From NCBI GenBank assembly GCA_033439255.1, contig CM065879.1:414501-478500 (forward strand): a stretch of DNA of 64,000 bases. Reading direction: 5' to 3'. The translations under genes were made by a program, and so were the position numbers. Below, piece after piece: positions 32,501-58,170 of this stretch (its first letter is position 1; each line of letters opens with the position of its first letter). Source of the stretch: Hericium rajendrae. Lineage: Eukaryota > Basidiomycota > Agaricomycetes > Russulales > Hericiaceae. The notes under the pieces are model-generated. The model did not search any database. It saw only the letters and a list, made by a program, of their open reading frames with translations, and was not told where the DNA came from.

Positions 32501-35500
32501 GTGGCCGTCCCTGCCGAAGCGGCCGCAAGACGAGATTGTGGCCCTTCTGAAGGACAAGGCGTTCATCCCGACGTCTGTCGGCATGAAGGCACCGGGCGAT
32601 GCGTACTTCGCGAATGTGAATTTGTTCAAGGATCTCCCTGTTGTCACTTTACCTTCCGGGACGGCTGTGAAGGGGCCGATGGAGAAGGTCTTGCAGTCAT
32701 TAGGTGTGCGCAAGCACGTCGAGCTGCAACTCGTTTTTGACAGGTACTTGCTTAATCTCGCTGTCTTTTCGACGACGCTGACGATGGCGTTAGGATGATC
32801 AAGACTGGAGACTGGACTATCATCGACCTGGTCAAATACCTTGTGTCAGCGCAGTCGACCTTGACGGAATTGGAGATAGAGCGCTTGACTTATACAGCCG
32901 CGTTCCCGAGACAAGCTACGCCCTCAGACCAGTCCTCCAAAGGTCAGGAGCCAGTCAAGGTTGCGCGGTACAAAGCCAGCGATTTGTATGAACCCTTGGA
33001 CGTTTTCCGCGAACTCGGTCTTCCCGTAATCGATTGGGGAACAGAGAACAAATGGAAACCATCGTCAGAGGAAGGTCCGTATTTGCGATTCGTTATAAAT
33101 TGCCGGATTGTTGATCGATATTGCAGCCAAGTTCTTGTACTCACTTGGTCTGAAACGCTCGCCTCCCCTCTGGACCATTATCCAATTGGCCGCAGGCACA
33201 GATCCAGTGTTACGTTCCAAGGCTTTGAAGTACTTCTTGGACAACTTCACTACCAAATATTCCGACTATGATCCCTACCCCTTCCGAGAACTAGCTTTCA
33301 TTCCTGCTATCAATGGGCCGGAAAAGCTTATGGCAAAACCTTTGGAGGTATGGGTTCACTGAGCGGTTCGACACGGGCCTCTAATCACAGACTATTTTCA
33401 GGTCTTTGCGAATCACGAATGGGCTGTCCTTGGATTCACCGTCATCGATCCCGAGTTACATGCCGACGTGACCAAATTGAAGATCAACGAGCATCCTCCA
33501 ACGTCTCGATTGGTGACTCTCCTCGAGAAAACACCGCCGCTGACTGAAAAGGACGCCCGGCAATGGTTTGAGGTACTAGCAACTCGCATCACAGGTGTGT
33601 ACTTATTCTCGTTGGGCAACTTATCGAATCCTTAGTGACCTGTCAGACTTCACTCCGAGTCAATTGCAGTCGCTATCGGTCATCCCGTTCGTGCCTACAA
33701 AGCCGATAGCGCCGGTGCAAGGCTCTTCGGTCCCGCCTTCTGCAGTTCAGAGACTGCCTCCGAGTCGGTGCTACTTTGCAGGCGCGTCTGGAGACGAGTT
33801 CCATTCCAAACTCTTCGTGTTTGTCGATTTCGGCTCCCGGGCCAACGCTTTCCTCAGCGCCTGCGGTACAAAGCATGAGCCCTCTGTCGAAGAGATCGTA
33901 CAAATTTTGCTGGCGAATCCACGACAGTTTTATGAGCTGGCAGACGGACGCGAGAAGTACGACATCTTGTCTTCGATGCTGCTGGACATTTGCTAACGTC
34001 TGATTTTAGTTACCTGTCAGAACTTCGGAATATAGCTGTTAATCGGAAGTTACTTTCGTCGAGCACTATTGCGCGCATGAAACGAACAAATATCCTTCTG
34101 GGATCACGCCGGATCAAGAAGAAGCAAACAGCAAAATCCGTGACGGACGTTGATGAGGATGAGTGGGACTCACAGGACGATCTGCTCAAGCCTGACAGCG
34201 TCGTTGTTGCTGACGACACGAATGCCTATCAGCTTTTCGGAGATTCCATTTTCTCTGCTCCCCAAGAAGACCTTCTCGAAGGTGAGAAATGTTCACACAT
34301 GATCGTAGATCAATGCTGAAATAGGTGGAAGAGTTCTACATTTATCTTGGTTCACCTCGTCTCAGCGTATTGATGCGAGAAGAATATAAAGTCAGTAGTG
34401 AAGTGTCTGGGACCAGACTTGGGCAAGAAATGAAGGCCCTAATCCTTCAACGCCTGCCTTTGTTCTTACACGAGCACTCCCACGCTCGCACTCGTATATC
34501 CTACAACTGGCTCAACACCGACAAGAACTTTGTAGTCAGGGTGTTTGGAAAGCTGAAAGTGAACAAGTCGCTGCACCACGGCACCATCCGGCTGTCTCAA
34601 GAGCAGGATGCGTCTGCTGCTGCGAAGCGGGATGGTAAGGGGCCCATCGAGCTCTGGCTTGCCAATAATACGCAACCTGACATGTACGAGTACGTCGCTT
34701 TCCATCTGCCCTGCATCTGTCAGTCAATCTCACGCCGTTATCCAGGGTCTCAATCTCCCTCTGTCGTTTACTCTTTGATTCCCCGAAAGTCAACGACGCG
34801 CTTTTGTTCATGACAATCCTATCGACGGACCTACGTGCTTTGCAACGACGGGGATACAACGGTGAGTTCAAGGACAATCGTTCAGCATCCAGGTGCCAAT
34901 TATTCCTATTTCCAGTTGCCCGGATTTTACGACAGCAGAATGCAGACCGTGAAGCCGCCCAGAAGGCTGCTCGTGAGTTGGTCGAGGGGCAGAGGCGGCC
35001 ACTTGCTTCTGATGCGACCCAAAACGAGAAACAACCGCTCTTGCCTGCTGCGGTCCAGGACCAGCAGCAACGACCCATACCTAACGCGGCCGAGAACCAG
35101 AAACGACCGCTCGCGTCCGACGCGACGCTGTCCGAGGGAAGTGGTGCTTTGCAGAAGCGGCCTTTATCCATGGTCCAGAATCTTCGAAAGTTTGTCACCA
35201 GGGGCGACGGCGGACGCGACGGTGGGCCTGTCGGTAATGGCAGTGCGGAAGCAGGACCATCTGCACTGCCAGAAAGCAAGCCAATCCTTCCCGGGGGAAG
35301 ACCAGGAGGGTTCGGAAGTCCGGCCCCGGCAAATGGCGTCACCCCACTAAGCAATATTGGTGAGCCATTTAGACGAGATCGCACTTTGCCGTTGCATTCT
35401 AACAGCGGATGTAGAGTCGAACATCAACATGGCTATCAAGGCGTGTGCACCTGAGATGGGTAGCCTGATTCGGAATCGAAAGCAGATGGAAGTCGTGAAG

Positions 35501-36219: not shown

Positions 36220-37040
36220 CACAGGATACAGACATCTTGACGAATCTTCATGATTTCGGGGATACCCTCGCTAAGCGCTAAGCGCCAGTGACCGCATTTG
36301 TGTATTGGTTTAACCTTCTGCTTTTTCAGCATTACAACCTCGATCTCACATCATTGCCGTCCTCCTTTGATAAGATTTCCCGTAGGAAGTGAGTGATTCC
36401 CGTGATCCTACTACAGTATCATCTCAGGCTTGGAGATTGCAGGACCTTGTGGATACCACAATATTGCCTCCTGTCATATCGAGAACATCTCGGCCTCCGG
36501 AGTCAGACAGCCAGGTGAGTCATTCATGATTCCTTAATTCATTTCGAGAATGGACCGCTGGCAGGACGCATGGCGGTGGGCTTTTCATGAGTACACTGAC
36601 CCGTTGGTCCTGCATTCGCCCCATTGTAGTCTTTAGACTCCGCCTACTCAAAGACTCTCGAGGTGAATCCAAGCGGAATGTGGAATTCAAAAGGCCGGGC
36701 CAACCAGTATTTCATCGCCGCTTGCAAATGTGTTCGAGTTGGCGCTGCGACACCCCGCGGCTGATCGATTTTTGATTACCCGGCCAAAGTCCGCCAGTAG
36801 GCGCTTCGCACCAGTCGAACGCCCCGGGGCCCGACTCTCTCCAGACAAAGATAATGGACCGTAGTGGGCCAGCATGTCCGATGGATCGACGACGGCAAGT
36901 ATGTGTCGCGTCTTAATGGTCCTCGGCACAGAGGACGCCTTGCTAAGCTTTCTTTGCAACGGGATAACTTCTCGAAGTACATTCTTGGGTTCAAAAGCAG
37001 ATAGAGTCGCTTTTCCCTGACAACAGAATCACCTAGCAAT
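36220..37040 (+). repeat. 5' module of SDR copy 1 (duplicated upstream region)
   Basis: Blocks recur in order upstream of SDR copies 1, 2 and 3 and in part of copy 4. They include TTAGCG near GCGCTTA (about 36280), AGCATTACAACCTCGATCTC (about 36331), CTCCTGTCATATCGAGAACA (about 36470), GAGTCATTCATGATTCC and TAGACTCCGCCTACTC (about 36640). Just before the ATG are a TCAAAAGCAG block (36991-37000) in the TATA position and ACAGAATCACCTAGCA. Confidence 0.6.
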
Positions 37041-38181
37041 ATGGGTCTTACTCACGAAGAAATCAAAGAAACCAACGAGCGTCCTCTGCCTCCGCTCGAA
37101 GACCACGATATCGCAGGTCAGACGGTCGTCGTCACCGGGGCCAACGCAGGTTCGTCATTGCCCTCTCGTCGTCAAGTCGAGTTGACTTATCTTTCTCGAC
37201 AGGCATCGGCTATGAGATCACGAAGTACATGGCGAAGTATGGCGCCTCGAAGATAATTCTGGCATGTCGCAACGAAGCGAAGGGCCAGGACGCCATCGCC
37301 AAAATCGCCAATGACACTGGCAGAGATGTGGGCGTCTTCCAGTGTTGGCCGCTCGATCTCGCGTCGATGGCCTCCGTGCGAAGCTTCGCCAAGCGCTACA
37401 ATGACAGTGGCCTGCGCCTGCACATCTTTATTCACAATGCTGCGATGGCCGTGATGGGGCAGGGGAAGCTTATGAGCGAGGACGGGTTTGACTTGACGTG
37501 AGTCCTCGCCTACTTCTATAATTCCTTCGTTCCAATCAACACTGGCGCAGTCTGCAGGTCAATTACATCGCTCCGGCACTGCTGTCGATGCTGCTCTATC
37601 CAGTTCTCGAGCGAACAGGTGCCCTGGACAAGGCCAATCCTGCCCGCTTCATCTGGGTCATAAGCGGGCTGCCTTCCTTGCCCTACAACGAGTCGGCCGA
37701 CGCCCATCCAATCGAGGCTATGAACAAGCAGGCCTACGATCTGCCTGGCACCGAGCCGCACTGGCCGTACCTTACGGCGAAGCTCACCTGCCTTTTGACA
37801 TGCCACGAGTATGCGCGCCGCCCCTCGTCCGCTAATATCGCAGTCGCGGCCGCGACTCCGGGCGTGGTAGCGAGCGAGCTTGGGCAGAAGGACGCCAATG
37901 GTAACACCTTCCAGGCGATGGACATCGAGAAATTCACGCATGTGCGGCCGAGGACATGCGAAGAGGGGGCGAGGACGATCGTTCTGCCGGCAACATACCC
38001 CGTCGAGGCGGTGTGGAAGGCGGGGACGCACAATGTCCCGCTTTTTTTTAGTATGCAGGAGATGGCCACAAGCTATTTCCACGAGAAGGCAGGGGACGAA
38101 GAGCTGCAGGGGAAGGTTTGGGCGGACACCGTTCGTCTTCTGAAGTTGACCGATGCTGAAGTCGACAGCTGCTTCCTCTGA
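37041..38181 (+). CDS. Short-chain dehydrogenase/reductase, SDR copy 1
   Basis: Three exons (37041-37149, 37203-37497, 37551-38181) encode about 344 residues starting MGLTHEEIKETNERPLPP. The Rossmann motif reads TGANAGIG, split by intron 1. Then come KIILACRNEAKGQDAIAKIA, the adenine-site-like CWPLDLASMASV, IHNAA in place of the usual NNAG, and the catalytic YLTAK (YxxxK). The end is LLKLTDAEVDSCFL. It fits classical NAD(P)-dependent oxidoreductases of the retinol-dehydrogenase/WW-oxidase type. Substrate is unknown. It belongs to a family of four in this window, all with the same intron positions. The active-site Tyr and Lys are kept, so it is likely functional. Confidence 0.88.
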
Positions 38182-38233
38182 ATATAGGATGACATTATCC
38201 CGTATGTCCTACTTATTACTGGATGCAGACATA

Positions 38234-38627: not shown

Positions 38628-39313
38628 TTATGGCGAATTATCGTGATTTTAGGGATACTTTCCTGCCGGTGACCGCACCTATGCATTTATTCGAGTTATC
38701 CTTTCTCAGCACTATGATCCGACGTATTTACAACATTGCCCTCTTTTTTTCCGGCTGTAGAGAGCGGTGCGTGCGATCCTAATACACAACTGCGCACCTC
38801 ACCCGGTCTGCTCAAGCTTCCACCTCCTGTCACATCGAAACCCTCTCGACCTCCGTGATCAGGCAGCTAGTCGAGTCATTCATGATCCATTTTTGGACCA
38901 CAATACATGGCGCCAGAAGCCTCATGAACCTGCTGACCAGTACTCAGTATTCGCCCATTTTAGTTCCTAGACTCCGCCTCTATAGAGACTCGCGGGGTGA
39001 GTCCAAACGGAGTGTGTAATTCGGAGCTGTCTTTGCCCCTGCTCACGACCCCGACTTGACTCCGACGAAAAGCGGCTGGGCATTTCGAGCTCAGCTGAAC
39101 CGACGGCCTGGATTCGACTCTTCGAGGCTACAATTTACAAGTCGAAAGGCCAACTCCCTCGTCAGAGACGCTCCTACAACGATGATGGGCCCAATAGTGC
39201 TCAAACATTGTCGGCACCGCAGAGCGCCTTGCCAGGATGGTGAAAAACCCCTGAGCTTCAATATCGTATAAAAGCAGATGCAGTCGCATCGTCAAACCAC
39301 AGAATCACCTAGC
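38628..39313 (+). repeat. 5' module of SDR copy 2
   Basis: This is a diverged copy of the block upstream of SDR copy 1. Shared pieces are ATCGTGATTTTAGGGATAC (about 38639), a CTCAGCACTATGATCCGACG block, CTCCTGTCACATCGAAACCC (about 38824), GAGTCATTCATGATCC and TAGACTCCGCCTCTATAG (about 38970). A good TATA box, TATAAAA at 39267-39273, is followed by ACAGAATCACCTAGC right before the ATG. Confidence 0.6.
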
Positions 39314-40374
39314 ATGTGTCTCACTTGGGAAGAACTCAAAGCGGCCAGCGAGCGGCCTCTGCCTCAGCTCGAAAATCATGACATCGCAGGTCGGACGGTC
39401 ATCGTCACCGGGGCCAGCGCAGGTTTGTTACTACCGTTTCGTTCTTTCAAGTGAACTGACTCTTTCTGGACAGGCATCGGCTATGAGGTTACGAAATATA
39501 TGGCAAAATACGGCGCCTCGAAGATAATTCTGGCGTGTCGCAATGAAGCCAAGGGCCAGGATTCCATCGCCAGAATTGGGAAAGAGACCGGCAGAGACGT
39601 TGGCGACTTCGAGTGCTGGCCGCTCGATTTCGCGTCAATGGCATCAGTACAACGCTTCGCCGAGCGCTACAACGAGAGCGGCCTTCCTCTACACATTCTT
39701 ATTCACAATCCAAGATTCGTTATGACCGGGCAGTGGCAGCCCATAAGCGACGACGGGTTTGACTTGATGTGCGTCCTAGTCTCCTCTTATAATTTACTCG
39801 TTCCGATAATCACTGATGCAGCCTGCAGGTGAATTACCTGGCCCCAGCACTGCTGTCGGTCCTGCTGTATCCCGTTCTCGCGCGGACAGGCGCCCAGGAC
39901 AAGGCCCCACCTGCCCGCTTCATCTGGGTCATAAGTGAAGGGTCCCCGTTCGTGCCCTTCAACCAGTCCGCCGACTTCATCTCCCTTTTGGCTTGCCACG
40001 AGTACGCGCGCCGCATCCCGCCGCGCGCCAACATCGCGGTTGCGACCGCGGGTCCGGGTGTAGTAGCGACCGAGCTCGGGCAGGACATCGACGGCGACGA
40101 TTTTGAAGCGATGGACATTGAGAAATGCACACATGTACGGCCGAGGACGGCCGAGGAGGGGGCGTGGACAATCGTTCTGGCGGCGACATACCCCGTCGAG
40201 GCGGTGTGGAAGGCGGGGACGCACAGTGTTCCCCTTTTCACGAGCATGCTGGAGATGGACTTGCAGTATTTCTGCGAGACGGCAGGAGACGAGGTGCTGC
40301 AAGGGAAGGTTTGGGCAGATACCATTAGTGTTCTGAAGTTGACTGATACTGAAATGGATAGCTGCTTCTTTTAA
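39314..40374 (+). CDS. SDR copy 2, active-site deleted
   Basis: The start MCLTWEELKAASERPLPQLE lies 41 bp after a TATA box. Exons are 39314-39422 and 39474 to about 39768, then a last exon beginning just before CTGCAGGTGAATTACCTGGC (about 39828). TGASAGIG and KIILACRNEAKGQDSIARIG are intact. Compared with the three sister copies, however, the stretch between FNQSAD and LLACHEYARR keeps only 3 residues where copies 1 and 3 have 30. This net 27-codon in-frame deletion removes YxxxK. The NNAG-type motif is also altered (IHNPR). The rest stays open to the end ..TEMDSCFF. It cannot be a normal SDR enzyme. It may be a young pseudogene or a cofactor-binding protein without catalysis. Confidence 0.85.
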
Positions 40375-40384
40375 ACGTATACAT

Positions 40385-42097
40385 ACATCATCCCGTGTTT
40401 CCGTCGCTGGCGTGCCATGATTGTCGCAATCCGTGATTGTGACGACATGAAGAGGTGCTCTCAGCGCCGCCTGCGTCCGAACAACTCCCAGCAGCAAATC
40501 ACCGAGCGGTATATCCGTGCATTCATCGTTTGCAAGTACGACCCTTGTCAGATTCTCTTGCAAAATCCTGAGTGCTGTTAAATGCGGAAAGAAATCCTGC
40601 TGCATATTTGATCCACTCTCATTCTCTAGCTTCTTGGAACCTGGAGTTGTGACGCCGGTCTGCAGAAGGCGAAGCAGCGGCCGAATCGAAAGCCCCCGCG
40701 GGGCCATCTCCCTCACCGCAGGCATGCGCCTAAATGCGTCCCCCAGCGCACCGCACGCGCTCCCGTCAAAGTCAGCCAAGCTGAACGGATCATCGTCGAC
40801 CCACGCCTTGAACGAAAAGAGCAGGTTGCCGTACGCGTGGCCGGAGACATCGCAATCAAACTAGATCGCAGAAGGCGATATGCGGGCGGCAGGATCGCCC
40901 GTATCGCCAAAGACAGTAGCAGGAGGGACGACTTCGCGCAGGGTCACGAACATGGACACAGTTTTGAAACCTTTTGCCTGCCTTTCGTACAGCTCGAATT
41001 CTCTGCGTGCCGTGGGCGGTATGCGTAATTGATCCAGAAAAGCGATGGTCTCATTGCTATGCAGCATATTGCCTTCTTTGAGAAAAAGCGACTTCAGGCA
41101 AGGCAGGGGAATTGGGTCGAACATATGTTCGTCTGGAACACGGCCCCACCAAGTTGTCTCCTTAACGACTAATTTCTCGAGCTGCGGCATTCTCTTTAAA
41201 AGTAGCGGAAGTTCTTCCAGATACATGGAAGAACGGGCTGTGATAGTGACCTTGAAATTCACAACGTTCCGAAGGCCGGGCAGATCCACGGCCGAAATTC
41301 CGCTGCAATAATGGAGGCCAAAGCGCCGAACTCGAGGTAGGTTGGTCCAAAGATGTTGCGCAGATCGTATGAGGGTAGGTCCAAATGGCTGAATACCAGG
41401 GATTCCAGAACAGAGCGGGAGGGTGAGGGCCGCCAGCACTTGAGACGTATGCGACTCGACATTCTGTAGACAATTTAAGTTCATATGCGCTTCAAATGCA
41501 AGATGCAGGCCTTTCATCTGCCGCACAGTCAGGACTGAGTGCCTCCAGAACCACGTCGCATAATTGAGCATCTCTGGCTTCAACGCGCGCAGAAAGAGCG
41601 AACGGATGCTGCTTGGATCGGATAAGCATCTCGTTCATCCAAGGCACAGTGAAGGGGCTCCGACTTTGCTCCAGAACTGCGGTGTCGAAAGGGCCAGGTA
41701 TTTTGACCGCCGACAAACGTGCGCAGCGACGATCCAGCCGAGATGGGTGTGATCCATCTCGCGTTAAAGTCGTCGCTTCCTTCCAATGCTCTCGATGGGG
41801 CTGAATCGCACTCAGAGAGTCAGGTAAACACATGCAGGAGTCAGAGAGTGAACGCGAGCATGCACCGTAGCGAGGACGTGCTGTATGGCCGCGAGGTCTT
41901 CTGATGGGCTTCGACAACAGTTTCATAGAGATCAGAGTCCGATACGTCGTCGATTTCTAGGAGCCTTGACCACAGACATGACACCCAGAAATTTCTGCAT
42001 GGTGGCACATCCCATAGATATGCGACAATGCCATAAACAACAGTAGAACTTACTGTGCCTCTGCCACCTCCACAATGGCAGCTGTTAGGAGCTACCA
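40385..42097 (-). pseudogene. F-box-like pseudogene, inverted relative of the gene at 45770
   Basis: The minus strand reproduces the 45770 gene almost end to end. It has a short first exon ending in the same ..CA|GTAAGTTCTA donor, then NFWVSCLWSRLLEIDDVSDS, PWMNEMLIRSKQHPFALSA, MKGLHLAFEAH, FGLHYCSGISAVDLPGL, VVPPATVFGDTGDPAARISP and ADFDGSACGALGDAFRRMPA. Several lesions break it: a stop soon after RCMLAFTL (about 41841), frame changes between 41500 and 41840, and a stop after ISPSAI at about 40861. It lies tail-to-tail with SDR copy 2, mirroring the functional pair at 45.8-49.0 kb. Confidence 0.9.
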
Positions 42098-45769: not shown

Positions 45770-47665
45770 ATGGCTGACACTACGGAGATTGAGGCCCATG
45801 AGGCCCAGTAAGTTCTATTATCATTCACGGACATGATTCGCGGATTCATGATCATGTTTTGCAGAAATTTCTGGGTGTCATGTCTGCGTGCAAGGCTCCT
45901 AGAGATATCCGGCATATCCGGCTCTGATCCCTACGAAACTGTTGCCGAGCTCCTCCCAGAGCTCAAGGGAATACAGCACGCACTCGCTCTGGCGCAGAAC
46001 GCACTCGTTCTGGCGCATGCCCGCGTCCACAGCCTCACCATAACCGGGCACTTGCCTTCGGAGGTGCTCCTGCATGTATTCACCTGCCTCTCCGAGTGCG
46101 ATCCGGCCTCGTCTAGGATACAGGAAGGCACCAGCATCTTCTACTGCAAGGCTCATGATTCCCATCTCGGCTGGATCGTCGCCACGCACGTCTGCCGACG
46201 GTGGAGATACCTAGCCCTTTCGACGCCACGGCTTTGGAGCGACGTCGGGGCCCCATTCGCGGTCCCATGGGTGAACGAGATGCTCGTCCGATCCGAGCAG
46301 CATCCGTTCACTCTTTCTGCATACGTTGAGGCAGAAGACGATGAATTATACGATCTGGTTCTGAAGGCACTCAGCCCGGACCACGTATGGCGGATGAAAG
46401 GCCTGCATCTTGCATTTGAAGTGCAGTCTAGCTACATGGACAAGTTCTGGTTACGGAATGTCGAGCCGCGCACGTCGCAAGTGGTGGAGGCCCTCATGCA
46501 CCCCGCTCCTGCTCTAGAGTCCTTGGCGTTCAGCCATTTGGCCCTACGCACATACGATCTGCGCAACATCTTTGGATCCAACTTACCCCGACTCCGACGC
46601 CTCTGCCTCCACTATTGCAGCGGATCCTTGGATGTGGATCTGCCCGGCCTGGAGAACATCGTGGATTTCGAGATCACCGTGAACATCAGCGCCGTTTCCC
46701 TCATGGGACTGGAAGAACTCCCGTTACTTTTAAAGAAAATGCCGCGGCTCGAGAAGCTGGTCATCAATGATGTAAATCATTCCCCCCATACGACCAACGG
46801 AGCGACCTTCGACCCGGTTCCCCTGCCTTGCCTGAAGTCGTTTTACGTCAAAAGAGCCGCCAATGTGTGGTTCCACCACGATCTTGTTGCTCTGCTGGGC
46901 AAGTTACGTCTGCCGCCAAAGGCACGGAGAGAATATGAGCTGTACGAACGAAAGGATTTTGAGCTAAATTCCATGGCCTCGGCATTGGAGCAGGTTGTCC
47001 CTCCTGCTACTGCCTTTGGCGATGCAGGCGATCCTGCAGCCCGCCTGTCACCTTCTGCAATCGAGCTTGTTTGCAATGTCTCCAATCACGCATACGACGA
47101 CCCGCTCTTTTCATTCAAGGCTAGGGTCGACGACGATCAGCCATGGTCGAAACCCCGTTTTGCCATAAATTGGACCGACTACGCCCTAGACGCTCCCTCA
47201 GTCGAAGGCTTATTCGGCGCTTTCGAGTTGCATGCCGTTACGCGTCTCGCGTTCAGCTTGGCCGACTTTGACGAGAGCATGTGCGGCGCGCTGAGGGATG
47301 CGTTTGGACGCATGCCTGCGGTCAGGGAGATTGTTATGCAGGGGGCTTCAATTCGGCCGTTGCTTCGCCTTCTTGCAAACCTGGGTCCTACGAGTCCAGA
47401 AGCAGAGGATGGACAGGACGTACAGCAGGTTTTCTTTCCAGACCTAACACTACTCTCAATCGCGGAGGGAGATTTCGCGGGGGCTGCGGCGGACGACAAG
47501 GGCACGGATATGGTGCTCAGTGATCTGCTGTTGAAATTTATTCAGAAGCGGGCGGCGATGGATGTGCCCCTCCATTTCCTCAAAATCGCAGGTTGCGAGG
47601 GTGCTGAGCCTCTTTTGGCACAGCTACGCTGTCATGTAAAGGATGTTCGTTCCGTGGATTATTGA
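45770..47665 (+). CDS. F-box-like protein (paralog 3, partner of SDR copy 3)
   Basis: Exon 1 (45770-45807, MADTTEIEAHEA) joins exon 2 at 45865 to give EAQNFWVSCLRARLLEISGI. The F-box segment is ITGHLPSEVLLHVFTCLSEC, followed by LGWIVATHVCRRWRYLALST and PRLWSDVGAPFAVPWVNEML. The leucine-rich C-terminal part includes LPRLRRLCLHYCSGSLDVDL and LEELPLLLKKMPRLEKLVI. Length is about 610 residues with no lesion. Gene structure (tiny exon 1, phase-2 intron) matches the genes at 22798 and 25381. Probable role is substrate recognition in an SCF ubiquitin ligase. It faces SDR copy 3, tail-to-tail, with 208 bp between. Confidence 0.87.
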
Positions 47666-47873
47666 CAGCATCGACTCGTTAATGTCGGACATGGGGCCAA
47701 TGACACGTAGCACATCAACAATGTGGGTTGAAATAGAAACAACTTTTGCTGCCAGTTGTAGCATGCCATCTCTGTTGTTTAAACTGATCTGGTCAGGGCC
47801 CAGCCGTCTGGCATGCTCATTATATGTGAAGCAACAATATCAACAACAGGAATACAAGAGGCGATGCATACAT

Positions 47874-49021
47874 TTAAAGGAAGCAGCCGTTCACTTCTGC
47901 GTCGGTTAATTTCAGAAGACTAACGGTGTCAGCCCACACTTTCCTCTGCAGCGCCTCGTCCGCTGCCGTCTCGCAGAAATACTTCAGATCCATCTCCTTC
48001 ATGCCGCTCAAAAGCGGGACACTCCGCGTCCCCGCCTTCCACACAGCCTCCACGGGGTATGTCGCTGCGAGAACGACCGTCCTCGCCCCCTGGTCCGCTG
48101 TCCTCGGCCGAACATGCGTGAACTTCTCAACGTCCATCGCCTCGAAGTTGTCGCCGTTGACGTCCTTCTGCCCCAGTTCCGTCTGAACAACCCCCGGACC
48201 TGCAGTCGCGACTGCGATATTGGCCGACGAAGGGATGCGGCGCGCGTACTCATGACAGGCCAGCAAGCAGAGGAGCTTCGCCGTAAGGTACGGCCAGTGC
48301 GGCTGGGTACCGGGCAGACCGTAGGCCTGCGTGTTCAGAGTCTGTACCGGATTGGCGTCGGCGGCTTCGTTGAAGGGCACGAACGGAGACCCCTCGCTGA
48401 TGACCCAGATGAAGCGGGCAGGCTGGGCCTTGTCGAGAGTGCCCGTACGTTCGAGAACAGGATAGAGCAGCACGGACAGAAGTGCCGGGGCGAGGTAATT
48501 GACCTGGAGGCTGCGCCAATGTTTATTGGAACGAATGGATCAAAGAAGAAGACGAGGACGTACATCAAGTCAAAACCGTCGACGCTAATGAGCTTCCCTT
48601 GGCCTATCACAACGAACCCAGCATTATGGATCAAGATGTGCAGGGACAGGCCGCTGTCATTGTAGCGCTTGGCGAAGTTTCGCACGGAGGCCATCGACGC
48701 GAGATCGAGAGGCCAACACTCGAAGGCGCCGACGTCTCTACCAGTGTCATTACCGATCCTGGCGATGGCGTCCTGGCCCTTCGCTTCATTGCGACAGGCC
48801 AAAATTATCTTCGAGGCGCCGTACTTCGCCATGTACTTCGTAACCTCGTAGCCGATGCCTATCGAGAAAGATAAGCCAATATGACTTGAAGAGGCGAGAT
48901 GGTAATACGAACCTGCGTTGGCCCCGGTGACGACGACCGTCCGACCTGCGATGTCGTGGTCTTCGAGCTGAGGCAGAGGCCGCTCGTTGGCTTCTTTGAG
49001 TTCTTCCCGAGTAACACCCAT
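47874..49021 (-). CDS. Short-chain dehydrogenase/reductase, SDR copy 3
   Basis: The ATG at 49021 gives MGVTREELKEANERPLPQLE. Two introns sit at the family positions (within TGANAG|IG and after DGFDLM). Motifs are TGANAGIG, KIILACRNEAKGQDAIARIG, CWPLDLASMASV, IHNAG, the catalytic YLTAK, and the end LLKLTDAEVNGCFL. All catalytic features are intact. A TATA-type box (TATAAAG on the minus strand, 49073-49079) lies about 51 bp upstream. Its 5' region is interrupted by the DNA transposon from 49407, about 385 bp upstream of the ATG, which may have cut distal control elements away from the gene. Confidence 0.9.
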
Positions 49022-49406
49022 ATTGCTAGATGGTAGGTAATTCTGTGTTCAGACAATGCGACCACATCTGCCTTTATAGTACCTTCGGTTGACATTTGGA
49101 AGGTTTATCCCGTTGCAGGCTGAGGGTGAGGCTTAGCAAGGCGCTCTGCGATGCCGTCGTCGACTCATCGGCCAGGTTTGAGCACTATCCAGTCCATCTT
49201 GGATTTGCATAGAGAGTCAGGGCTTTCGACTTGGCGAAGTGATGCAGTGTGTGAAGCGCCTACAGAAGGACTTGGACGGGGTATGTAAATCTATCGGCCG
49301 CGGAGTGCCGCAGCGCGAACTCGAAGGCGTGTGCAAGCGGCGATGGAATTTTGGCTGGCCCTCCCTCTGAACTCCACACTCCGCTTGGTTTCACCTCCCG
49401 AGTTTT
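49022..49406 (-). repeat. 5' module of SDR copy 3, proximal part
   Basis: Reading away from the ATG, this matches the copy 1 and 2 upstream blocks: ACAGAATTACCTACC, the TATA block, a CGCCTTGCTAAGC-like block and CCACACTCCGCTTGG. It is cut by the transposon at 49407. The rest continues at 55347. Confidence 0.65.
49399..49406. repeat. 8-bp target-site duplication, left copy
   Basis: CGAGTTTT directly precedes the transposon end. It matches 55347-55354 exactly, and 55332-55339 in seven of eight bases. Confidence 0.75.
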
Positions 49407-52400
49407 GGCACGCTGACCATGTCTGTGTCGCTATTATAAATAACTCGAAAACTAATAATAAAAAAATTTGGCCAATAAGAAGCCACTATAGTATAGTACT
49501 CTAATAGTGATACGCCGCGAGCACGGGGGGTCGTATTCACACCGCGGCCATCCGAGATGCGGCGAAAGACATCAGGTATGACCTCCGTTGTTGTTCCGCC
49601 TTCCTGTTTGACGTTTCGAGCTGTCCACGCCGTCCCATGCATCCCAGCATGGCCTTGACGGTCGATTCTTGTTACGGCCCATGCAATCCACATTACTGCA
49701 ATCCTTGCAAGGATTTTTACACCGGTACACTCCATTCTTGCCCACACAGCTTTCGCTCTGCACGCACTTCCGGCAGCTTCGTGTGCCCGTGGATTTCTTG
49801 AGGTCTGGCATTGGTGCCGAGCGCGTCAAGGCTCGCTTTCGTGAGAGGCATGATTTGATGGTCTCGGCATTTGTCGTGTCGGGACTTTGATTCATCGTGT
49901 GCTCGGGCTGCGGTGGCAGCAGGGGATCCATGAAAATCTCGGGGGATGATCCAGATGGTGTAGAGGACTGTGATACGAGGCTCAGTGGTAAGTCAATCCC
50001 TCCCACTGATCCTGGTGTTGATGATCCTTGGGGGTTCGTGTTGCTGAAGGTTTCCGGCTCTACAGGCAGTGAAAGCGGGCGCCGATGGAATTCAGACGAT
50101 GTTGATGGCGATGAATAAGGGGAAAATGGACGTGTGCTGGTGATAGTCGACACCGGTGCGCTATCGTCTGATTTGGCAGAGGCGTCAACGGGTTCCGAGC
50201 TGACGGGAAGATCACATGGTTCAACAGGGAGAAGGCCGCGAGGGACGACAAGAGGCCGCAGTGGCATCGCCTGAGCGGGCAATGCCCTCGCTGATCGTTG
50301 GTGATCTCGTATGGCAGCATCGGTGGTTTTGCGTGCCTCAGATGTTTGAGTCACAGTCTGTCGTGTATTCATGTTCGTTTTCCACGTGTTGTAATGTGCA
50401 CGTATGTGTTCTGGAACCTGACCACGCACATGAGGACTGTATCACTATAAGGACTTAAGGATGATCTTACCTTGTAGAAGACATTAATCTCGTATTCTGC
50501 ATATTGATTCCATACTTTTGCTGCTTCGTTGAAGTTCAGGCCACGGCCGCTGTCACGGAATGTGGGATGGTCTCGCATGAGCGTACAAAAGAGCTTGTTT
50601 TCATCATCCGTGTGAATTGGCATGACAGCTTTCCGAGTTCCTTGACGCAACGCCAGGTATGGATGCCGCAGCTTCACTCCGCGAATGTCCTCGAAGCTCT
50701 TCATTTCAGTCAAGTGGCGTATGTCGTCAGGGATGGGGAGGATACCAATGACCTCTTTGGTTTGAACGTATAGATTGCCGTTGACCCACCCGCTCAATGG
50801 CTTGGACTCAGGCACCGCAGGTTGAGTAAGCACGATCATCTCTTGTAGACGATTCGTGAGCCAGATGTCGAAGTGCCCATTGTAGGCCTGTCCGGTGCTG
50901 TTGAAGGTTCCGACCTGCGGCAGACAATTAATGCCAATGGCGCAGATCGTGAAATTTTGGAGCACCCACCTTGAGGTTATGATGTAGTACGAAGTCCATC
51001 AATGACGCAGATAAGAACCGTACAGATACCCCATCCTGAGGCAAATGATGCCGTATATGTTTGTGTACGCCGCCTTCGGTCATTGTTGTTCCTCGAATGC
51101 AGCGATAGACGGGTAAGTTGCCAGCATTCTTATCGACCCCGAGCTGAAAATAGAGCGGGACATCCGGTGGATCTGTTACCGAAGCATCGTCAATTAGCCC
51201 CAAAACACTCTTCGCCGTCAGCCAAGCGGCCTTGTTGAAGAGCGGCTGCCGAGTCTTGGCATCTTCCAGAGGGCCGTAAGTGCGAAAGACATCATGCACG
51301 AGTGTGTACAGTTCTTTAGGTTCAGGAATGACACGTTTGCAATGCCGCCAGAGCCAGCGTGGTCACTTTTGAAGGAGATCCGCCCAAGTCTGGGGAGGAT
51401 CCTGTAAAGCTGCCCATTGGACGATGCGGCGCTTGTCTTCAGCATCTGGAACGAAAAGGGCATCACGCAGAGCGCGTGCGAACGTGATCCGTAAACCGTG
51501 AGTGCGAGAAATATAAAACATGTTGAAGAGGTGGAAGGGATCCTTGAGAACTCGGGAACGTACAACCCTTCTTGAATCAGGATTGCTTGCTGCAGTACTG
51601 TTCACGTTTGGTAATATCTGCGCGCCTTCCGTTTCACTTTCAAAATTGCGATTGAAACCTGACAGCGAGAATGACGCCGTCTCGTCAGATTCAGAGGTGC
51701 CTTGATCATGCATCAGGTCTCCAATTCCAGGAGCTTGCTCATGATCATCAGAGGCTGACGCGACTGCCAAATCATGCTCGTTGACCACAACGGTTGCCGG
51801 CGATGGAGCGTCAGGATCGGGGGCCACCAAGTTGGATGACTCGGAGCTCCCAGAGTTCTGTTGATTGGTCATAGACAGAGAGCATGACGGTGACGAGGCA
51901 AGAGGCTGTATTAATTGTGTTGATCTCAAGTCCGGCATTGCTCCATCGGACACAGTTCGAAGCCGCGAACGGAGGCAAACAAGATGGAAAGGGGAAAAAG
52001 GGTCTGACATGAAGCTGGATAATGCACGCTTGTGATGGGTTGACATGATCGCCCCAGGTACCAATACATCTTGAACAAGAATGACTGTCCGTGTTGGTGT
52101 AATGCGAATGCTATCATGGGTGTCGTCAAATGCGTGTGGAGAAATAGATCCACGGGCAATAGGGCGAGTGTGATCAGCTGAATAGAGGATGACAGGTTGA
52201 TTGGGTGGAATAATTGATGGCAGTACTTGCGGTGCGGAAAGCTTGCTCAACTCGTCATAGATCCAGAGAGAAGCCAGTGCATCTAGAGCTGCATACTTGA
52301 TTTGGGCATCGCTCAATGCAGCATTCTCCCATTGGGTGCTCACGCGTACTGGTAGGTTCTTGTTCAATCGCCTGCATAATATGATTGCACAGAGGTCAGC

Positions 52401-55331
52401 CAGGCTGGCGGTGGCGTTCTGAATAAGGTGTCGTTCTTTTGCGAGCTGCGCCAAGTCAATCGCACCAACAAACGGTTGACGAGAATTGCACTCCTGTTCT
52501 AGCATTCGAAGGTCAACCTGAACTTGACGTCCGACCTTCTGCACCTGCGGATTTGCCAGGAATGAAACCAATTGAGTCGGTAGAGAACCTTTTGCAAGCA
52601 GGCTTCCAATCTGAAATGATGGTATAAATTTCATGTTTATCTGCAGGAATATGAGATACACACCTGGAAGATGTAGATCTGCTTTCCAAGTGCAATCTGA
52701 ATGATCACCGTCAGACCACGCTTCTGTCCTGCTCCTGCCGAGAGGTCAACGTTCCACTCCGTATCAAATCCCACTGTGAGCTTCCCGCCGTCAGACGGGA
52801 TTTGATCAACCAGCCTCAGAATATCGTCGTCAATTGCTGATGCTGTGCTTCGCACAACGGGCGCACCCCAGTCTTCAGGAATTTCCAGAGTAGACAGATG
52901 CGAGTGCTTTTCGACAGGCGTGACATTGTCCCGAAGAGCAGGAAAGGCAGCCTCAAGAAACTGCTTGTCAAGCATATTGTCCGTGTAGAACACGCGTGGT
53001 TGTATGTGCCCGTAGATTTGCAAGGATTCACGTGCATGTCGTAGAGCAAGTTCGAACTGCGAATGTGATTTTGTAGCAACGAGGCAACAGCATCGGATTT
53101 CGCCTTTCTCATTTGTAACTGTCAGAAGGCCAACAAATATCTCAACACCATTGATCTTCATTGCTTGCTTCGTGATCTGCAAAGATGACTGTAATTAGCC
53201 TTCAAGATGCACGGTAGTGAAGTTCACCACTGACCTTATGACTGTGATCTAGAGCGCAAACCTCGGCAGTGCGAAGAGATGTGTCCTGGAATATTTCAAG
53301 CTCATGTTCGTGGATCATGTTGACGTAGACATCTTGCAGCCAGCGAGCACTCGGAGTCCAACCGCAGGGACCATCATCCGATCTATCATCGTACGGAAGC
53401 CAAGGCTTGAACGTCGTCGTCGTCGTCCACGTTGCCAGTCCCTGACGGGTCGCTATCTCATCCAGATACTGCAGACCCTGCGTGTCATGACGAAGCAAAT
53501 GCTGGACACGGAGCGCATCACAAAACTGCTGTGTTGGCATTCCTGATTGTGTACAGGAGCGTAGAAGCCGAGCGAGAGAAGTCGAGAGGCCGCTGCGGTG
53601 CGTGAAGCGAACGGGGAACTCAGCGCGCAAAGCAGGGGGAAGAACGTCGAGGATCCGGGAGTCCCAGCTTAAAAAGGTGACCATCGTGGTTTTGCGATTT
53701 GAGCCTGGCGGTATCAAGCAGTCCTTGCACTTATATCGATATCCGATAATCCAAAATGGCTCATCGAGGTCGAAGCACCGTCGTGGATATGGAATACGAC
53801 CCTGGCGAGAAAGCTTGGACTTGCAGATCGGGCATGCAATACCGCCTTGAACGAGACACTCGGGATCCCAGAGCATGAAGCGAGGATTGAAGAGTTGCTG
53901 AGGGGATGGTGTTGTTGCTTGTAGAATAAAATAAGAGGAAGGGCGGGGAACCAGAATGTCTTGTTTTTCGTATACAGTAAGGGCACACCGTCAACTCGTA
54001 CACTGGCTTCCTCGACTTTTGCCCTGAAGGCTGCCATTAGCCATGATGGCTGAGGCGGGCGTGCGCGAGTCGACGACTGCCCGGCTCCATCTCCGTCCTC
54101 TCCGTCACTCTCTGTGTCCTCCTCGTCCTCATCTTCCCCGATGCCCACGCCAAGCCCGCGGTCAAGAATGTCGTCAATCTCGAGGTCGCCGTCAATCGGG
54201 CGGAATGGGTCCAACTGGGGACGTAGGTACTGCGACGATTGATCTGTCGCTGGCTGGTTGGGGATGGGGAGTGCGCGAGGTGAAGCTGGTTGGACAGGCG
54301 GGCGCGTTAGCTGAGGTTGGAAGACGGGTGCGATGGAAGTGGAAGACGACAAGCCGGTGCCGGGGCCCGAACCAGGGAGATGCAGCTGTCAAGATAGATC
54401 AGCAAACCGAGGGAGGAGAAACAGAATCGACCTCACCGACGTGATGAGTTGACTAGCATCAACGGGTGGAGGCTCTTTGCGAGGGCGTCCTGGGCCGCGC
54501 TTCGCGATCGCGGGCTCCCCGTTCGCGTTCTCAGCGTGGGCTTGCTGCTTCCTGCCTGAGCCCTTAGGACGACCAGGGCGCCGCTTTTCGGTGTTGACGA
54601 GTTCATCGGGAGACTTGTTCTTGCTGCCCTTAGGTCGTCCGCGCGCCCTAGGCAGTTGTAGAACTGCAACCTGAGCCGTCGAGTGAGGAGAAACAGACAA
54701 AGGAGCCCGAGACGCCGAGACGCCGAGCGCTAGGCTATCGCGGGCGCCCGTTGCTGATAGTACGGCGTTCCCAGCTTCGGCGTTAGAAGTATTTCTCCTC
54801 GCCGTGGGACCAGGCGCAGTCGTGGACCTACAGAAAGGCACGAGAAGTCAGAAGTCTCCTTCGTATTGATCTTCTTGATATGAGATAGCAGGACTTACCC
54901 CTCGGGTGCAGCAGCAGCAGCGGCAGCATCTTCTGAGTCCCACATTGAAGGACCAATGTCCTCCACAGCATCCCACAGTTCCTGATCATCATCGTCACTG
55001 ACGCGGGCAACAGCTGGCGCTCCGGCAGCAGGTGGATGGCGCTCGTCTGCTTGATGAGCTTCATTTTGATGTATGTCGTCACCGAACCTCATTATTATGA
55101 ATATGATGGCCGGCGCTCGGGGCTTTTTGTGGCTTTGTCGAGTAACTGTAACTGTGATGCTGCGATATGTTCGCGTTGTCGCCTGGACACATGTACAACG
55201 CGACGCGACACGCGTGCCCCAGCCCTCTAGCAGCAGCAGTATCCTGCGCAATTCTCCGCTAGCGGTGCCGGCACATTCCGCTGGTGGTTTTATTACATAA
55301 CGCTAGCGGACACAGACATCGTCAGCGTGCC
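49407..55331. mobile_element. DNA transposon (5.9 kb) carrying a transposase-exonuclease fusion gene
   Basis: The terminal inverted repeats are GGCACGCTGACCATGTCTGT at the left (49407 onward) and GGCACGCTGACGATGTCTGT as the reverse complement of the right end (about 55309-55331). They match over about 23 bp with one mismatch. An 8-bp duplication CGAGTTTT flanks it. The insertion site is confirmed by the empty equivalent upstream of SDR copy 1 (36630-36690), where the sequences left and right of the element are continuous. One minus-strand gene fills the element. The superfamily is not assigned: 8-bp duplications occur in hAT and some other groups, but the transposase does not look like standard hAT. 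Confidence 0.88.
49572..55092 (-). CDS. DDE-like transposase with embedded DEDDy 3'-5' exonuclease and AT-hooks
   Basis: In order from the ATG at 55092: an acidic start (MRFGDDIHQNEAHQADERHP); three AT-hook-like motifs (GRPKGSKNK, RPGRPKGSGRK, GPGRPRKEP; 54470-54660); CPICKSKL plus KCKDC zinc-type motifs (about 53740-53830); ALDHSHK (53235) and VFYTDN (52980), taken as transposase D1 and D2. Then comes a RNase D/WRN-type exonuclease with FDTEW (52760), a second Asp in VDLRML, and YAALDA (52290). After a Ser-rich linker comes GTTMTEGGVHKHIRHHL (51080), the likely E, then YNGHFDIWLTNRLQEM and a Cys-rich tail (CRKC..CKNPCKDC). Introns are short and mostly clear. One in-frame TGA follows ADLLQK (51363-51365), so this copy may be inactive. 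Confidence 0.75.
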
Positions 55332-55354
55332 CGAGTTTGGCACGCTCGAGTTTT
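55332..55354. repeat. Double target-site copy with an 8-bp transposon-end remnant
   Basis: After the right end the order is CGAGTTT, GGCACGCT, CGAGTTTT. The middle 8 bp equal the first 8 bp of the transposon end. The two outer pieces match the left target duplication. This looks like a footprint of a second insertion or excision at the same site. Confidence 0.65.
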
Positions 55355-55780
55355 GGAGTAGGCAGAGCCTGAAAGACTAAAATGGGAAGAACGCTGGACC
55401 AACAGGTCAGTGTACTCGTGAGAGGCCCACCGCTATGCGTCCTGGTCCATTCTCAAAATGAATGATGAACGGCTCAGCTCGCTGCCTAATCTCGGAGGCC
55501 GAGAGGTTCTCGATATGACAAGTGGCAATGCGGTTGTAATCGTACTCGACGCGGATACTTTAAACACTGCTTCTATATTCGGGTGAGGTGGGCAATCATG
55601 CAATCATGTATTAGGATCACGGACTTAACTACAAATAGTTTCGTCTAAGGAAGATGGTAATGGTATAGAGATGTCGAGGTGGTAGTGCTGAGAAAGGAAC
55701 AAACACCGTGTCGCGTACGCAGCAAGTGCGCTCACCGGCGCTTAGTCCTTAGCGAGCCAGAAGGAAGGAATCCCTGAAAT
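55355..55780 (-). repeat. 5' module of SDR copy 3, distal part
   Basis: This continues the upstream region split by the transposon. GGAGTAGGCAGAGCCTGAAA, GGACCAACAGGTCAGTGTAC, a GGAGGCCGAGAGGTTCTCG block and TCGAGGTGGTAGTGCTGAGA correspond to the reverse complement of 36330-36680 upstream of SDR copy 1. Confidence 0.65.
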
Positions 55781-56448
55781 CGGAGAATCCAGCAAGATAT
55801 GCAGGTATCCAGTGATTACGATGATGTTCGGGAATGGAAACCGGGTCGATGACAATGACTTGTATTATTCGCAGAAGGAAGATAACAGCTTGGAAAAATC
55901 CCCTTCCGAAAGTCACGGACATCTGTGTTTACAGCTTCCTGTTAGAACCGTGCGGTAAGAAGCAAAGCAACCAATGTATGCCATGACCGGTACTACTGCA
56001 AGTTCAAAAGTAAGCTCCCGTCGCAGTTGATTGAAGGGAGTCGTCGGTCCTGATGTCAGTCTACAAATATATGCAGACTTGTCATCGGAAGCTCATACGC
56101 CCCAATGACAACCTCCTGGATATAGATAAATAGGTTAATGCACGTTCGTTCTCTATAAGCGAAAGTATCCCAACTGGGCACATGTGCGAGACGTCAGAAC
56201 ACGAATGGGAGAAACAAAAGAGAAAGTCTATCATGCGGCGGGGATCTCGGTGGACGATGAAGGGACGAATCGGGTCACATATGGCCCTCGGTGACTTGTT
56301 GTTCGGAGTTACTCAGAGACAGCCCGTGGTGGATGCGCATCCCCACGCTCTCATACATGTCCTAACCCAGCCATCTAACACGGTCATTATATGCCAAGGG
56401 TCAATCGTTTGAACAAAGGGACATACGATACTATATGACGTCGTACAT
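55781..56448. other. Intergenic, no gene recognised
   Basis: This is the 3' side of SDR copy 4. Composition is AT-leaning and no coding or element evidence was seen. Confidence 0.35.
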
Positions 56449-57579
56449 TCAGAGGAAGCAGCTATTGACTTCAGCGTCGGTCAACTCCAAGAGACGGACG
56501 GTATCTGTCCAAATCTTCTTCTGCAGCTCCTCGTCCCCAGCCTTTTTCCAGAAATATTCCAACGCCATCTCCTGCATGCTAGTCAAAAACGAAACGCGGC
56601 GCGTTCCCGCCTTCCACACCGCCTCGACGGGGTATGCCGCCGCAAGAACGATCGTCCTAGCCCCCTCCTCGCGCTTCCTCGGCCGCACGGATATGCGTGC
56701 TTCCAGGTCAACCGGCTGGAAGTCGTTTCCATCAATGTCCTTCTGTCCGAGCTCCGTCGCTACCAGCCCCGGAGCCACAGCTGCGACGGCGATATTGGCG
56801 GAAGACGGGACGCGGCGCGCATACTCGTGGCAAGCCATCAGGCAGATGAGCTTCGCCGTAAAATACTGCTGCCGGGAATCTGTCAACTCGTAAGCCTTCT
56901 TGTTCAAAGCCTCGATCGGTTGAGTGTCGGCGGACTCGTCGAAGGGCACAAAGGCGGACCCCTCGCTCATGACCCAGAGAAAGCGTGCAGGGTATGCTTT
57001 ATCGACTGTGCCCGTCCGCTCGAGAGCCGGATACAGCAGCATCGACAAAAGTGCCGGAGCGATATAATTGACTTGCAGACTGTACCCATGTTAGAACGAA
57101 CAGATGAACGAAGGTAGCCAGGGCTTACATCAAATCAAAGCCATCCTCGCTGATGACTTTCCCAATCCCGTTCATACCAGCGTTATGTATGAAGATATGC
57201 AAGGCTAAGCCACTCTCGTTGTACCGCTTGGCGAAGCGTCGCACCGACGCCAGCGACGCGAAATCAAGCGGCCAACACTCGAAGTCGCCAACGTCTCTCC
57301 CGGTCTCCTGAGCAAGTCTGGCGATGGCGTTCTGACCCTTGACTTCGTTGCGACACGCGGCGATTATCTTCGAGGCGCCATACTTTGCCATGTATTTCGC
57401 AACCTCATAGCCGATCCCTGTCAGAAAAGTCAACTCATCAACTGGAAGAGATGAGATGGTATAGACGAACCTGTATTGGCTCCAGTGACGATCACTGTCC
57501 GACCTACGATGTTGTGATCTTCGAGCAGAGGCAAGGGCCGCTCGTTGGCCTCTTTGAATTCTGCCCAAGTGACACCCAT
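56449..57579 (-). CDS. Short-chain dehydrogenase/reductase, SDR copy 4
   Basis: The ATG at 57579 gives MGVTWAEFKEANERPLPLLE. Two introns are at the family positions. Motifs are TGANTGIG, KIIAACRNEVKGQNAIARLA, CWPLDFASLASV, IHNAG and the catalytic YFTAK, with the end LLELTDAEVNSCFL. It is the most diverged of the four, with ELTDSRQQYFTAK where the others have GTxPHWPYLTAK, but it keeps all catalytic features. The upstream TATA equivalent is TACAAAAGCAG (reverse strand, about 57623). It is probably functional, with unknown substrate. Confidence 0.88.
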
Positions 57580-58170
57580 GTCGCTAGATGAGTTTGTCCT
57601 TAGACAAAGGGACCGCAATCCTGCTTTTGTACACGAGCCCGAAGGTCAGGTGCGGTACCGCCGTTGAGTTGTCCGCCATGTTTGAAGTGGACCCGCGTAG
57701 CATCAGCAATGAGGCACAGCCTGACCCACCTTCTCCGCGCCTCAAATCCGCCCATTATCGTCATACACCGCCGTGACTAGGAAGTGTCCGGATAGCACTC
57801 AATGCAGCATATAGCCAGTCCACACTTCTAGTTCGTGAGGTGATGCAGATGTGCGGAGCCTGGAGACGCCAGATAGACTTAGTAAGCATACCCGGGAGTG
57901 AATGGACCAATGTACCAGACCAATGGGTCGATGGGTCGATGGGTCGATGGGTCGATGGGCTCGTGAGGCACTTCGGTCCATGAGGCTCTGGATACCACCG
58001 AAGACGATGGCAGCTTGATCGCGAGCATCATTGACTTCCTACAAGTGGCTCTGTGACTGCAAAGAAAGATGACAACGGCGTAGAGATGTAGACAAGTAAG
58101 ACGTTGGGAGTGTTGAGAAAGAACAAACACAAAGCGCCTTGGAATTAGACGCGGCCCTGGCCACCGGCGC
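57580..58170 (-). repeat. 5' module of SDR copy 4 (partial)
   Basis: Only parts resemble the other SDR upstream regions. They are a proximal CATCTAGCGAC/TATA-type block, and a distal block at 58070-58170 (GTAGAGATGTAGACAAG, GTTGAGAAAGAACAAACAC, ACCGGCGCTTA) matching 55665-55745. Confidence 0.5.
57923..57960. repeat. Short tandem repeat, 8-bp unit GGGTCGAT
   Basis: Four perfect units and a partial fifth follow CCAAT. This is a small satellite within the SDR copy 4 upstream region, with no function suggested. Confidence 0.9.

Follow-up and report, generated by a model that had tools for sequence, protein, structure and literature searches.

The systems closest to the locus described here are the Dada transposons treated by Kojima and Jurka in 2013. 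In the part of that paper that was available (PMC3706591), Dada elements of the mushroom Laccaria bicolor (Dada-1_LB and Dada-2_LB) and the brown alga Ectocarpus (Dada-1_ES) are described as encoding an exonuclease of the DEDDy kind, placed after the second D and before the DxxH motif, with all four acidic exonuclease residues kept, and it is proposed that the Dada exonucleases likely process cleaved 3' ends. Introns are recorded in the same part for all Dada elements except those of Perkinsus, insertion in snRNA or tRNA genes is stated for elements with clearly definable ends, and an 8-bp target duplication is not ruled out for Dada-U1 (PMC3706591). Beyond that paper, a literature search by title and abstract found nothing on exonuclease-bearing Dada transposases, no paper on Dada elements of Basidiomycota with terminal inverted repeats (Repbase was outside its scope, and newer fungal entries may exist there) and no paper naming DUF6729. 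The word 'exonuclease' is absent from the available text of a 2022 paper on fish Dada elements (PMC8869645); the accessible text on the Marasmius oreades genome reports that Dada was sought, with no multiple well-supported hits (PMC8290104), and that on Ectocarpus from 2025 reports one Dada family with 15 copies (PMC12477816). ISL2EU elements (PHIS superfamily) also encode an exonuclease, which according to the part of the source available is of the YqaJ kind and is carried by a separate ORF, outside the transposase (PMC4482050). Both the architecture considered below and the idea of end processing have thus been in print since 2013, and the present element is a further example, not a discovery.

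The element is probably (about 0.85) a Dada-type DNA transposon of the cut-and-paste kind, probably decayed, with a WRN-type exonuclease inside the catalytic region of its transposase. In the window (the whole stretch of DNA that was analysed, 64,000 nt) it occupies positions 49407 to 55331 (5,925 bp, with its single gene encoded on the minus strand), as delimited by inverted ends and a natural empty site. The terminal inverted repeats, of 23 nt each, lie at 49407-49429 (plus strand) and 55309-55331 (minus strand), read GGCACGCTGAC(C/G)ATGTCTGTGTC and are complementary at 22 of 23 positions (96% over 23 nt). With up to 3 mismatches allowed, the end pattern was found at two sites in the window, both of them the ends of the element, and at none in 100 shuffles. 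Elsewhere in the window, neither the ends nor the protein were found again. The 8-bp target site duplication CGAGTTTT has its left copy at 49399-49406, adjoining the left end, and its outer right copy at 55347-55354; this 8-mer occurs just twice in the window (both strands considered), at these two sites.

The insertion lies beside one copy of a gene region that is present in four diverged copies (36463-38209, 39267-40402, 47799-49406 and 56366-57632), with pairwise identities of approximately 74-80% in a self-comparison of the window. The genes of this region are putatively SDR-like by motif; a Pfam scan of two pieces of it gave no match. Other features of the window include a long reading frame at 31593-32798 with a strong match to DUF3684 (Pfam, E 6.7e-131), three F-box-like reading frames (22874-24640, 25457-27199 and 45815-47665) and a diverged stretch at 40788-41999 that resembles the third of these frames (71% over approximately 1.3 kb). 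The host genome looks fungal, judging from the short introns, these F-box genes and the occurrence of DUF6729.

Another copy of the gene region provides the natural empty site, a duplicate without the element at 36450-36850 (minus strand), in which the junction falls at approximately 36651-36657. In the self-comparison, a match of 78.0% identity runs from 47869 to 49406 and halts there, opposite 36651, and the next match (78.1%) begins at 55348, opposite 36657, which leaves 16 unmatched bases after the right end of the element. When the insertion and one target copy were removed in silico, the joined flanks aligned with the duplicate free of gaps across the junction, the nearest gap being some 20 bases away, so that the right limit of the stretch missing in the duplicate is 55346 or 55347. 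The longest repeat bounding that stretch is the 8-bp CGAGTTTT, and six of the eight target bases are alike in the duplicate locus. That this DNA is a transposon, as the first-pass annotation had held, is borne out by the 23-nt inverted ends, the 8-bp target duplication and the natural empty site.

The gene, read from the minus strand, starts with an ATG at 55092, closes with a stop codon at 49572-49574 and contains six GT-AG introns of 51-71 nt; introns were placed by eye, and boundaries and reading were then produced by script. Exon 1 (54899-55092) begins with the first ATG. Exon 2 (54437-54827) holds three AT-hook-like motifs at approximately 54478-54655 (coordinates by eye), and exon 3 (53235-54385) an acidic linker, DUF6729 and the first presumed catalytic Asp (D1), with a break in frame near 53950. 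Exon 4 (52664-53176) would encode strands 2-4 of the presumed transposase fold, followed by the second presumed Asp (D2) and the first part of the exonuclease, the remainder of which lies in exon 5 (50970-52610) together with a linker, the DxxH motif and the presumed catalytic Glu (E). Exon 6 (50471-50914) is followed by exon 7 (49572-50417), which ends in a Cys-rich tail and includes the stop codon; all seven exons are on the minus strand.

Two probable lesions mark this copy. An in-frame TGA is found at 51363-51365 (minus strand), in exon 5. In a scan for introns of 40-160 nt within 120 nt on either side, six in-frame GT/GC-AG options of 114-159 nt would remove it, one of which begins with GT (153 nt); a true stop is preferred over an intron, a sequencing error being possible. 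The second probable lesion is the break of the reading frame near 53.95 kb, between NKTFWFP and PSSYFILQ, for which a 71-nt GT-AG intron at 53918-53988 would be an alternative that also keeps the frame. The DUF6729 score is 72.3 bits when the break is bridged by an X vs 68.4 bits with the intron, and the start of the match moves from profile position 46 to 31. Since the X bridge raises this score and lengthens the match, a frameshift is mildly preferred as the reading of the sequence here. Because of the in-frame TGA and the probable frameshift, this copy is unlikely to be an intact gene, and probably no working transposase is made from it.

The translated protein begins with three AT-hooks and the acidic linker. 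DUF6729, in which a CCCC zinc motif lies, is followed by D1, D2 and the exonuclease, after which come a long linker, DxxH and E, and the Cys-rich tail forms the C-terminal part. The AT-hook-like motifs (n=3) are presumed to be such by their sequence; they and the Cys-rich tail (49647-49775, minus strand) had been listed in the first-pass annotation and are visible in the translation. Introns, TGA, probable frameshift, DUF6729, DxxH, the 8-bp target duplication and the empty site go beyond it. DUF6729 (PF20499) matches at 53316-53921 (minus strand) with a Pfam E-value of 9.4e-19, and the CCCC zinc motif (CPIC ... CKDC; C53, C56, C88 and C91, with residues numbered here and below along the reading whose start is at 53990) is encoded at 53718-53834 (minus strand).

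The exonuclease, a DEDDy 3'-5' enzyme of the WRN type, is encoded at 52233-52777 (minus strand) and is split by the intron at 52611-52663. All five DEDDy positions are kept (D390, E392, D456, Y529 and D533); the first-pass annotation had likewise read the nuclease motifs as kept. The spliced piece matched the Pfam family DNA_pol_A_exo1 with an E-value of 6.2e-14, and the closest solved structures by sequence were those of the WRN exonuclease (PDB 2e6l and 2fbt; E-values of 3.6e-10 and 1.7e-07). The exonuclease domain is shared with WRN, where it is linked to a helicase, whereas here it is joined to a transposase-like protein. It is followed by a linker of approximately 230 residues (51545-52232), which has an ordered-looking start (VILYSADHTRPIARG ... 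VILVQDVLVPGAI) and is then disordered-looking; in exon 5, which holds this linker, the exonuclease was the sole Pfam family at E up to 1.

The residues presumed to be catalytic for transposition are D1 in ALDHSHK (residue 248, 53247-53249), D2 in VFYTDN (residue 318, 52979-52981) and E in TEGGVH (residue 935, 51075-51077), with the DxxH motif, DPFH, at residues 780-783 (51531-51542); all are on the minus strand. D1 and D2 are 70 residues apart and the last zinc Cys precedes D1 by 157; the distance from D2 to DxxH is 462 residues, taken up by the exonuclease (390-533) and the linker, and from DxxH to E it is 155. The earlier placement of the exonuclease between the presumed D2 (318) and E (935) therefore holds.

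D1, D2 and E are assigned from motif order and spacing and by comparison with the published family; homology searches bear on this assignment as follows. Pfam gave no family at E up to 10 for the D1-D2 and DxxH-E parts, in a search in which the HMMER filters drop many weak matches, and no solved relative was found for the D1-D2 part at E up to 10. KDZ, Plavaka, MULE and other transposase families represented by Pfam profiles were set aside because there was no profile match of any kind. AlphaFold2 run without relatives produced poor models (mean pLDDT of 45.3 for the D1-D2 piece and of 47.0 for the DxxH-E piece). In the low-confidence D1-D2 model (pLDDT 45.3) a helix is followed by four strands and two helices, with no strand at D2, where the RNase H fold needs one; at this confidence the model carries no weight in either direction. 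A Foldseek search with that model (pLDDT 45.3) returned 1,365 matches at E up to 10, none of them at 0.001 or better, and the best 50 of the 1,365 were a mixture without a transposase. NurA, presumably an RNase H-like nuclease, was within these best 50 (E-value of 0.04, TM score of 0.25) and was given no weight.

Searches for relatives elsewhere relied in part on three degenerate patterns that were partly shaped by family motifs. The DUF6729-D1 part yielded no records in tblastn against phages and three weak records against plasmids (best E-value of 0.08, 34% of the query), which were taken as chance. A related-locus search of viral contigs gave none for the exonuclease exon and none for D1-D2, for which two stretches matched a pattern. 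The degenerate pattern RGTxxxEGGxH found 12 viral loci, for which tblastn with three pieces gave nothing better than an E-value of 0.06 and the translations of which look unrelated, and the DUF6729-motif pattern found one locus (best E-value of 0.20). Among genome contigs the third degenerate pattern had no match, and the 70 stretches found for D1-D2 included no relative.

The DDE-like transposase proposed in the first-pass annotation, with the exonuclease between D2 and the final E, is the best reading: motif order, spacing and agreement with published Dada speak for it, whereas neither D1-D2 nor DxxH-E matched a Pfam family, and the profile searches recovered the exonuclease and DUF6729 but no transposase.

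Compared by published description, not by alignment, the element shares with the Laccaria and Ectocarpus Dada elements, as far as the available part of the paper describes them, the kind of exonuclease, its position between D2 and DxxH, the kept acidic residues and the introns (PMC3706591). At the level of sequence motifs, a DxxH stands after the second D and before the E of its presumed DDE triad; it has an N-terminal CCCC zinc finger, and its DEDDy domain, with acidic residues kept, lies between D2 (318) and DxxH (780). With Dada-U6 and Dada-U1 of fish and invertebrates, the same part of the paper indicates that it shares the CCCC zinc motif, the D1-D2 spacing, DxxH and E (PMC3706591). Regarding the spacings given there for Dada-U6_DR, D1 and D2 are 68 residues apart (70 here), the second and third gaps between the zinc cysteines are 35 and 3 (32 and 3 here), the first is Cx4C (CxxC here), and the last zinc Cys precedes D1 by 135 residues (157 here). 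The D2-E total of 176 residues in Dada-U6_DR (PMC3706591) would offer hardly any space for an exonuclease, and in the available text Dada-U6 and Dada-U1 are described without mention of one, whereas the present element has one.

Further differences concern ends, target and tail. Dada-U6 and Dada-U1 are described, in the part available, as without terminal inverted repeats, whereas the element has the 23-nt pair; the target duplication of Dada is given there as 6-7 bp (PMC3706591), and the outer copies here are of 8 bp and an inner copy is of 7 bp. No tRNA was found in the window (under bacterial settings) and no Rfam family at gathering score; at E up to 5, Rfam gave two sub-threshold matches for 48900-55900, both within the element. 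Inspection by eye of the Cys cluster in the tail (with its CRKC start) found no His at the spacing of the Dada-U6_DR C-terminal CCHC zinc finger. The element is named Dada-like only, because neither the RNA-gene targeting nor the CCHC tail was found, Dada-U6 and Dada-U1 are without inverted ends and the comparison with Dada is by motif. Dada-like describes its architecture; it would work as an exonuclease-bearing Dada does, and full membership in Dada is likely.

Among the other explanations, the least improbable takes the element to be as described, with an exonuclease that is retained in a non-catalytic role, either to bind DNA or as an inserted structural domain, which we consider unlikely. 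The hAT transposases have a non-enzymatic insertion domain at the equivalent place, which lends this explanation precedent. It is opposed by the five DEDDy positions, all of which are kept here, and by the four acidic ones that are kept in Dada according to the available part of the 2013 paper (PMC3706591). A separate, unnamed superfamily with a MuDR/hAT/P/Kolobok/Dada-type transposase, which would have gained its exonuclease independently, appears improbable: the true 23-nt inverted ends, the 8-bp duplication and the missing RNA-gene target, unlike the described Dada-U6 and Dada-U1, would fit it, as would the C-terminal Cys cluster without CCHC spacing, but the kind and position of the exonuclease, DxxH, the CCCC zinc motif and the D1-D2 spacing fit published Dada. 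That a host DUF6729-exonuclease gene lies by chance between inverted repeats, with no transposase involved, is very improbable, since the DNA bounded by the inverted ends is missing at the duplicate locus and has a target duplication next to it, and the motif order is DDE-like, even though the element is single-copy in the window and no transposase profile was matched.

Under the preferred reading of a decayed Dada-type transposon, the AT-hooks and zinc motifs would bind the ends of the element, and D1, D2 and E would together make up a single active site of the RNase H-like type. By ordinary DDE chemistry, this site would cleave the ends and link them to target strands at points 8 bp apart. 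The exonuclease would occupy the insertion region that separates strand 5 from the E helix, and it may trim 3' ends made during excision. The most likely substrates proposed for it are ends of the flank or donor site, or extra bases past the exact end of the element; flank and donor ends are favoured because digestion of the transferred 3' ends of the transposon would spoil joining.

Fifteen extra bases (55332-55346; CGAGTTT followed by GGCACGCT) separate the right inverted repeat from the outer target duplication and are not in the duplicate locus. They consist of a copy of the target duplication minus one T (7 bp) and of 8 bases identical to the beginning of the element's end, and were likely left by a further insertion or excision at the same site. 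The simplest account, drawn from this single locus, is that of two insertions at one site, one of which was later excised and left 8 bases behind. As a single remnant, the 15 bases are compatible with exonuclease trimming but are no proof of it.

We suggest tentatively, and with the odds against it, that the exonuclease-bearing Dada elements of fungi form a lineage of their own, marked by true inverted ends, an 8-bp duplication and no aim at small-RNA genes, in which the exonuclease shapes the leftovers at the donor site. If this were true, the 15-bp remnant would be a one-sided, trimmed excision footprint. For a transposon of the exonuclease-bearing Dada type, the ends and the target duplication are now defined and a natural empty site is available, so that the end-processing idea of 2013 becomes testable on real ends. 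The element also suggests that proteins labelled as DUF6729 with a 3'-5' exonuclease may be Dada-like transposases.
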